Positions 15,360-15,645 of a stretch of 33,036 nucleotides of DNA are shown piece by piece. The first letter of the stretch is position 1. Every line of letters begins with the position of its first letter. Origin of the DNA: a bacterium. GTDB lineage: Bacteria > Patescibacteriota > Patescibacteriia > UBA9934 > GWF2-40-263. The position numbers and the translations under genes are program-made. Location of the stretch: assembly GCA_020051955.1 (NCBI GenBank), contig JAGVQB010000035.1:1-33036 (forward strand), given 5' to 3'. The notes beneath the pieces were generated by a model. That model did not search any database. It saw only the letters and a list, made by a program, of their open reading frames with translations, and was not told where the DNA came from.

Positions 15360-15400
15360 AAACCGCGTAAAACAGCAAACCCGCCGTTGAAAGCGGGTTT
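15360..15400 (-). terminator. Intrinsic terminator downstream of the tRNA gene
   Basis: Minus strand AAACCCGC-TTTCAACG-GCGGGTTT-GCTGTTTT. Confidence 0.75.
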
Positions 15401-15440
15401 ACCATGATCCCGGATCATTGAGCCACATAATCACAGGTCG

Positions 15441-15516
15441 TGGTGGACCTGACGGGATTCGAACCCGCAATCCTCGGTGTCAAGACGAGTGAGGTTGCCT
15501 TTACCTCCACAGGCCC
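15441..15516 (-). tRNA. tRNA, tentatively Val(GAC); anticodon arm non-canonical
   Basis: GGGCCTG...CAGGTCC-A-CCA acceptor with encoded CCA, D arm GAGG/CCTC, T arm GCGGG-TTCGAAT-CCCGT. TTGACAC resembles the Val(GAC) loop, but the arm pairs best as CTCG/CGAG with a U.C mismatch or 9-nt loop. Confidence 0.85.
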
Positions 15517-15533
15517 AATTGATCCGGGGTAAA

Positions 15534-15574
15534 TAAAAACCCCCAACCGTTTTTTCGATCATTGGGGGGTTTTA
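15534..15574 (-). terminator. Intrinsic terminator between tRNA promoter and tRNA (also plausible on + strand)
   Basis: Minus AAAACCCCCCAAT-gatcgaaaaaacg-GTTGGGGGTTTTTATTT. Confidence 0.75.
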
Positions 15575-15610
15575 TTGACACCGAGATCTGGATAATATCC
15601 TCACTCGTCT
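15575..15610 (-). promoter_or_regulatory. tRNA leader with complements of the tRNA anticodon arm
   Basis: Minus AGACGAGTGAGG-ATATTATCCAGAT-CTCGGTGTCAA; the 12-nt and 11-nt blocks are exact complements of the tRNA anticodon-arm segments CCTCACTCGTCT and TTGACACCGAG. Confidence 0.7.
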
Positions 15611-15616
15611 GAGACT

Positions 15617-15645
15617 ATTACAGCACGTGTTTGGCACAACGTCAA
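15617..15645 (-). promoter_or_regulatory. sigma70-type promoter of the tRNA transcript
   Basis: Minus TTGACG -17 nt- TGTAAT; predicted start ~15610. Confidence 0.7.

Follow-up and report, generated by a model that had tools for sequence, protein, structure and literature searches.

A probable two-RNA module in Patescibacteria: an alanine-type tRNA and a linked small RNA complementary to its anticodon arm

Why should a tRNA gene be preceded by complements of its own anticodon arm? The question is raised by a locus on the minus strand of the window, a 33,036-nucleotide stretch of DNA from a bacterium that we judged, by its nearest named relatives, to belong to Candidatus Uhrbacteria (Patescibacteria). 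The original prediction described a 12-nt and an 11-nt leader block, each an exact complement of part of the anticodon arm and the two lying in swapped order, downstream of a TTGACG-17-TGTAAT promoter with a start at about 15610 and separated from the tRNA by an intrinsic terminator. All of these features were found in the sequence (Table 1). Two readings had been offered for them: an attenuator of the tRNA gene resembling a T-box, or a scar of recombination at the anticodon loop. Our analysis suggests a third, that the locus is probably a two-RNA module in which a dedicated Ala-type tRNA is accompanied by an anti-tRNA RNA (anti-RNA) that masks its anticodon arm.

The locus and its tRNA

The -10 box places the predicted start exactly where the first block begins. 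This block, A', complements the 3' strand of the D stem and the 5' strand of the anticodon stem; the second, B', complements the anticodon loop, including the anticodon, and the 3' strand of the anticodon stem. By sequence comparison, the two blocks are exact complements of tRNA nucleotides 23-34 and 34-44. The space between the terminator and the tRNA is insufficient for a separate tRNA promoter. A short CCCCGG flank precedes the tRNA where relatives commonly have CCCGG, and the flanking stems around the tRNA are conserved in relatives. The same genome carries two more modules (L035:408-484, C18; L002:1501-1577, C24), with TAA and TGA in the anticodon position, each with its own matching leader.

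Table 1. Features of the window locus, listed from promoter to final hairpin.
Feature	Position	Strand	Basis
Promoter of the unit, TTGACG-17-TGTAAT	15617..15645	minus	direct reading of sequence
-35 box, followed by 17-nt spacer	15640-15645	minus	
-10 box	15617-15622	minus	
A' block AGACGAGTGAGG, predicted 5' end of transcript	15599..15610	minus	12-nt exact complement
A'-B' spacer ATATTATCCAGAT, small hairpin with end of A'	15586..15598	minus	folding
B' block CTCGGTGTCAA	15575..15585	minus	11-nt exact complement
Intrinsic terminator ending the anti-RNA	~15536..15573	minus	direct reading and terminator scan
5' flank ACCCCGGATCAATT, can pair with tRNA 3' flank	15517..15530	minus	
Odd tRNA, alanine acceptor identity (G3:U70, A73), TGA in anticodon position	15441..15516	minus	
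3' flank CAATGATCCGGG, partner of 5' flank	15409..15420	minus	read directly
Hairpin and T-run 3' of tRNA, probably terminating the entire unit	15370..15402	minus	read directly

The tRNA was detected by ARAGORN and matched Rfam RF00005 at 43.5 bits. ARAGORN labelled it Ser(TGA), that is, tRNA-Ser(UGA). The label is misleading because the tRNA combines G3:U70 and A73 with a short variable loop, and the short loop and the alanine identity pair rule out an ordinary tRNA-Ser. In a near-complete relative (G022), which possesses a complete set of ordinary tRNAs, the real Ser tRNAs belong to class II and have a long variable arm. Of the ordinary tRNAs checked, G3:U70 occurs only in tRNA-Ala. The acceptor stem of the window tRNA begins G1-C72, G2-C71, G3:U70, and its TGA departs from the NGC anticodon of tRNA-Ala.

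Relatives were collected with a covariance model of the tRNA part only, with the leader left out; in genomes of the window's family this model separates the odd tRNAs from ordinary ones. G3:U70 was present in all 63 parsed members and A73 in 61, and G3:U70 was also invariant in 16 members mostly from a second clade. Across 25 aligned relatives the first three acceptor pairs are invariant, stem positions 4-7 vary with compensation, and the acceptor branch is 7/5, with the 7-bp acceptor and 5-bp T stem paired in every cell of the alignment. The anticodon arm is far more variable. The triplets in the anticodon position were TGA (27 of 63), TGC (9), TGT (6), CGT (4), CGA (4), TAA (3) and TGG (3), with the others found once each; most members thus have a non-alanine anticodon, and true alanine anticodons (TGC, CGC) occur in 10. 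Position 37 is C in 57 of the 63, which is unusual because purines are normally found there. Most members have a break in the anticodon stem, generally at 31-39 or 30-40, and an interrupted or enlarged loop; by our own reading of the fold, the arm of the second clade appears to consist of 5 bp and a 9-nt loop. At second-clade loci (L245, L248 and others) a flank 5' of the tRNA, GCCTGGTG, can pair with CACCAGGC, which spans the encoded CCA end, and by this pairing the precursor may hide its own 3' end.

Distribution of the module and covariation of its partners

The module was found in 33 of the 73 genomes of the window's order, at 1-8 copies each. Searches based on the tRNA, which sampled genomes outside the order, also recovered it from other Patescibacteria lineages (L100, L099, L217 and the second clade around G692). 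The distribution is patchy and multi-copy among genomes that are apparently mostly draft assemblies. The odd tRNA genes number about 100 from several lineages, and about 97 of them have both blocks nearby. Both blocks were detected together in 60 of the 63 parsed elements and in 13 of 13 further ones. At two loci (L016, L021) an apparent lack of blocks proved wrong, as the blocks sit further upstream. The exceptions among the 100 are two loci with a clear B' only (L139, L231) and one with no block (L310). This last locus (L310:959, G802) holds the sole odd Ala-type tRNA in the set without an anti-RNA inside its 2-kb locus. The same scan of about 35 ordinary tRNA-Ala genes returned no module and two weak, evidently spurious matches.

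Two ordinary tRNA genes showed arrangements of another kind. Upstream of a tRNA-Thr(CGT) in L050 (minus strand, 1312-1387) lie an incomplete copy of the gene's 5' half and a 15-nt stretch complementary, in inverted orientation, to the D and anticodon region; the arrangement looks like a duplication scar, unlike the anti-tRNA family. A tRNA-Ala(TGC) in L026 closely follows an incomplete copy of its own 5' portion, upstream of 1450, possibly an insertion or attachment scar.

A search of 50,697 phage records for the module gave 0 matches, and viral contigs searched with one exact pattern gave none. The loci lie at conserved inherited positions, and recognisable mobile elements are not their carriers. 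A conserved partner gene was considered and rejected: flanking proteins, such as those of uvrA/uvrB and of a NUDIX-like/UDP-glucose dehydrogenase locus, recur only through orthology of the locus. A link to FemAB-family proteins, which are aminoacyl-tRNA-dependent ligases, was likewise rejected; such proteins are near universal in the order (71 of 73 genomes, compared with only 3 of 14 named controls) and do not track the module.

These proteins bear on one alternative, in which the tRNA is a reserved alanine donor for a non-ribosomal enzyme, for example a FemAB-type peptidoglycan ligase, and the anti-RNA bars it from the ribosome. The alanine identity is indeed maintained while the anticodon arm drifts, and the enzyme is available in nearly every genome of the order. 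However, FemAB is independent of the module, a genome with six modules (G023, 89% complete) has no FemAB match, and losing the anticodon would be simpler than coevolving an antisense RNA. We regard this role as improbable.

The complementarity in the window was confirmed to be far above chance. Each block matches the tRNA at 11 of 11 positions, against means of about 7.1 and 7.2 and maxima of 9.5 and 10.0 of 11 for shuffled leaders (1260 shuffles), and 60 of 63 relatives reach at least 8 of 11 in both blocks. Over the family, leaders and their own tRNAs matched at 9.80 (A) and 10.05 (B) of 11 positions, compared with 7.37 and 7.74 for swapped pairs and 7.07 and 7.22 for shuffled leaders. Blocks were placed for best fit to their own tRNA, a choice for which the swapped and shuffled controls correct, since block position was re-optimised for every pair of loci, swapped pairs included.

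The blocks also change together with the tRNA in homologous loci, the covariation by which the original prediction had proposed to check itself. At fixed positions, 60 of 60 loci have a Watson-Crick pair at anticodon position 36, where every one of the four pair types occurs; several types also occur at other paired positions, among them 24, 27, 29, 31 and 41. Paralogs in four genomes discriminate among partners: for each anti-RNA the best fit was its own tRNA (18 of 18 rows). Orthologous loci L006 and L015 differ by a single compensatory change. At the NUDIX-like/UDP-glucose dehydrogenase locus, the arms of G001 and G002 differ at one base and their leaders at the complementary base, and the window's copy has eight arm differences from G001, which its leader follows. 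Covariation of this kind strongly supports pairing between the predicted anti-RNA and its tRNA. It also disposes of the second original reading, a recombination scar at the anticodon loop, and of an inverted duplication arising there by chance. The exact complementarity and swapped order of the blocks are what such an event could leave, but about 97 of 100 loci, in distant lineages and several gene orders, retain the blocks and co-change them with the tRNA, and for that reason the scar has next to no probability.

Design and gene order of the anti-RNA

The anti-RNA is built in a constant order: A', complementary to tRNA 22-32, comes first, followed by a hairpin, then B', complementary to tRNA 33-43, and finally an intrinsic terminator. 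Promoter-like sequences, scored as consensus matches, reached at least 8 of 12 at every one of the 60 loci, and at 58 of these the -10 box ends 5-8 nt before A', making A' the predicted 5' end. The terminator lies directly 3' of B' in all 60. In 56 of 60 loci the leader can fold with A' paired to B', imitating the anticodon stem; a hairpin lies between the two blocks, and the 3' tail left unpaired is a complement of the anticodon loop. In a crude energy balance, with the energies of the two hairpins subtracted from those of the two duplexes, the exchanged complex is favoured by a mean of 19.5 kcal/mol; for the window the figure is 26.

These energies bear on a further alternative, in which the anti-RNA is a guide for folding or processing that matures, modifies or protects the tRNA instead of silencing it. 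The conserved flanking stems suggest special processing, and the pairing spans the usual modification sites of the anticodon loop. Full complementarity over 22 nt would nevertheless break the anticodon and D stems, and the crude energy strongly favours the opened complex; a guide function is therefore very unlikely.

The position of the anti-RNA relative to the tRNA differs among lineages. In f166 genomes (L243, L244, L266, L270) the anti-RNA unit lies 170-260 nt upstream and ends in its own terminator, and a promoter-like sequence precedes the tRNA. L249 and L099 have the unit downstream of the tRNA in the same orientation, with TTGACA...TATAAT before it in L099. L222 and L217 also have it downstream but on the opposite strand, where it is convergent with the tRNA and shares a bidirectional terminator. 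Across these gene orders nothing is constant except the A'-hairpin-B'-terminator design and the tRNA match.

Such arrangements argue against the general validity of the first original reading, a T-box-like attenuator in which mature tRNA would bind the nascent leader and alter read-through at the terminator, regulating its own gene in cis. The window and most relatives fit it, with a terminator between leader and tRNA, no room for a second promoter and B' directly adjoining the terminator stem. Yet no antiterminator was found: leader segments pair with the 5' arm of their own terminator no better (-7.92 kcal/mol) than swapped segments do (-8.39 kcal/mol). Where the unit is downstream, convergent or separately terminated upstream, it is unable to attenuate the tRNA in cis, and a function common to separate, downstream and convergent anti-RNA genes must act in trans. 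A cis attenuator is thus not supported as the general explanation, and we consider it unlikely. The predicted link between leader and tRNA stood, with its covariation, start and terminator; the cis sensor, as a general mechanism, did not. Cis attenuation may still be an extra effect in the window's own arrangement.

A proposed mechanism, its role and known systems

We propose that the non-canonical tRNA is charged with alanine through its acceptor stem despite the unusual anticodon arm, and that the anti-RNA pairs with this entire arm, closing the ribosome to the tRNA. The anti-RNA would fold as a hairpin imitating the anticodon stem, and its free 3' tail (GGUG-codon-A) would contact the anticodon loop first, as a toehold. 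A four-way strand exchange could then open both stems and yield the duplexes A:A' and B:B', each about 11 bp long, the free 5' end of the anti-RNA removing a topological barrier. One promoter would serve both RNAs in the window, and the intervening terminator would keep the anti-RNA in excess, the tRNA being made by read-through only.

As the most likely role of the masked tRNA we tentatively favour a toxin-antitoxin-like pair, in which free tRNA would mis-decode or frameshift through a foreign anticodon or its altered, often 9-nt anticodon loop and the anti-RNA would be the antidote. Few odd tRNAs lack an anti-RNA, the spread is multi-copy and patchy, and partners are specific, a combination that resembles an RNA-RNA toxin-antitoxin pair. 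A simple mistranslation toxin is weakened by the 10 of 63 members with true alanine anticodons, and inheritance at conserved positions counts against a simple toxin reading. It is otherwise possible that the tRNA is set free only under some condition. The modules could conceivably form an RNA-RNA addiction or control class in Patescibacteria, with an alanine-charged rogue tRNA as effector, a strand-exchanging anti-tRNA RNA as antidote and pairs that diversify towards recognition of their own partner, though we hold this suggestion with less than even confidence.

If the anti-RNA silences its tRNA, then antisense RNA can control tRNA activity, and the tRNA itself may serve as a toxin or conditional decoder. 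For a very large bacterial radiation with reduced genomes, the module also bears on how charging identity (G3:U70) can be uncoupled from decoding. Being short and partner-specific, the pairs lend themselves to direct tests in laboratory E. coli.

We know of no dedicated small RNA aimed at the anticodon arm of an equally dedicated tRNA, and the open-access papers that we searched described none. In 3'ETS-leuZ, a tRNA spacer acts as a sponge of small RNAs; there, too, a small RNA pairs with RNA from a tRNA transcript, whereas the anti-RNA is matched to the anticodon arm of its one dedicated partner. The likeness to T-boxes lies in a terminator-bearing leader with a codon-like triplet complementary to the tRNA anticodon; B' matches the anticodon, position 36 being paired throughout. 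The present leader differs in that its two permuted blocks match the anticodon arm over its full length; it also accompanies a tRNA gene rather than an amino-acid gene, and in some lineages it stands as a gene of its own. Neither an antiterminator with a bulge pairing the tRNA 3' end nor leader-terminator coevolution was found, and in the Rfam search of the window only the tRNA model passed threshold, with no T-box match.

Allo-tRNAs and reassigned tRNA-Ala likewise combine G3:U70 identity with non-alanine anticodons (PMC7609411). The acceptor branch of allo-tRNAs is 8/4 or 9/3 (PMC7609411), and no antisense partner is known for them; the 7/5 branch of the module tRNA, with its 7-bp acceptor and 5-bp T stem, is neither of these. 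One of the closest known parallels is the type VIII toxin-antitoxin system CreTA, in which the CreT RNA sequesters a rare tRNA and CreA represses CreT via Cascade (PMC12737573). The module resembles it in having two linked RNAs, an expected interference with translation that is neutralised by the partner, and a basis in tRNA biology. Both partners here would be RNA, a presumably transcribed sRNA-like gene and a tRNA with no coding partner, and their linkage (about 97 of 100) and specificity (the cognate tRNA fitting best in 18 of 18 rows) agree with the type VIII pattern. The module differs from CreTA in that its candidate effector is itself a tRNA and its predicted antidote pairs with the anticodon arm.
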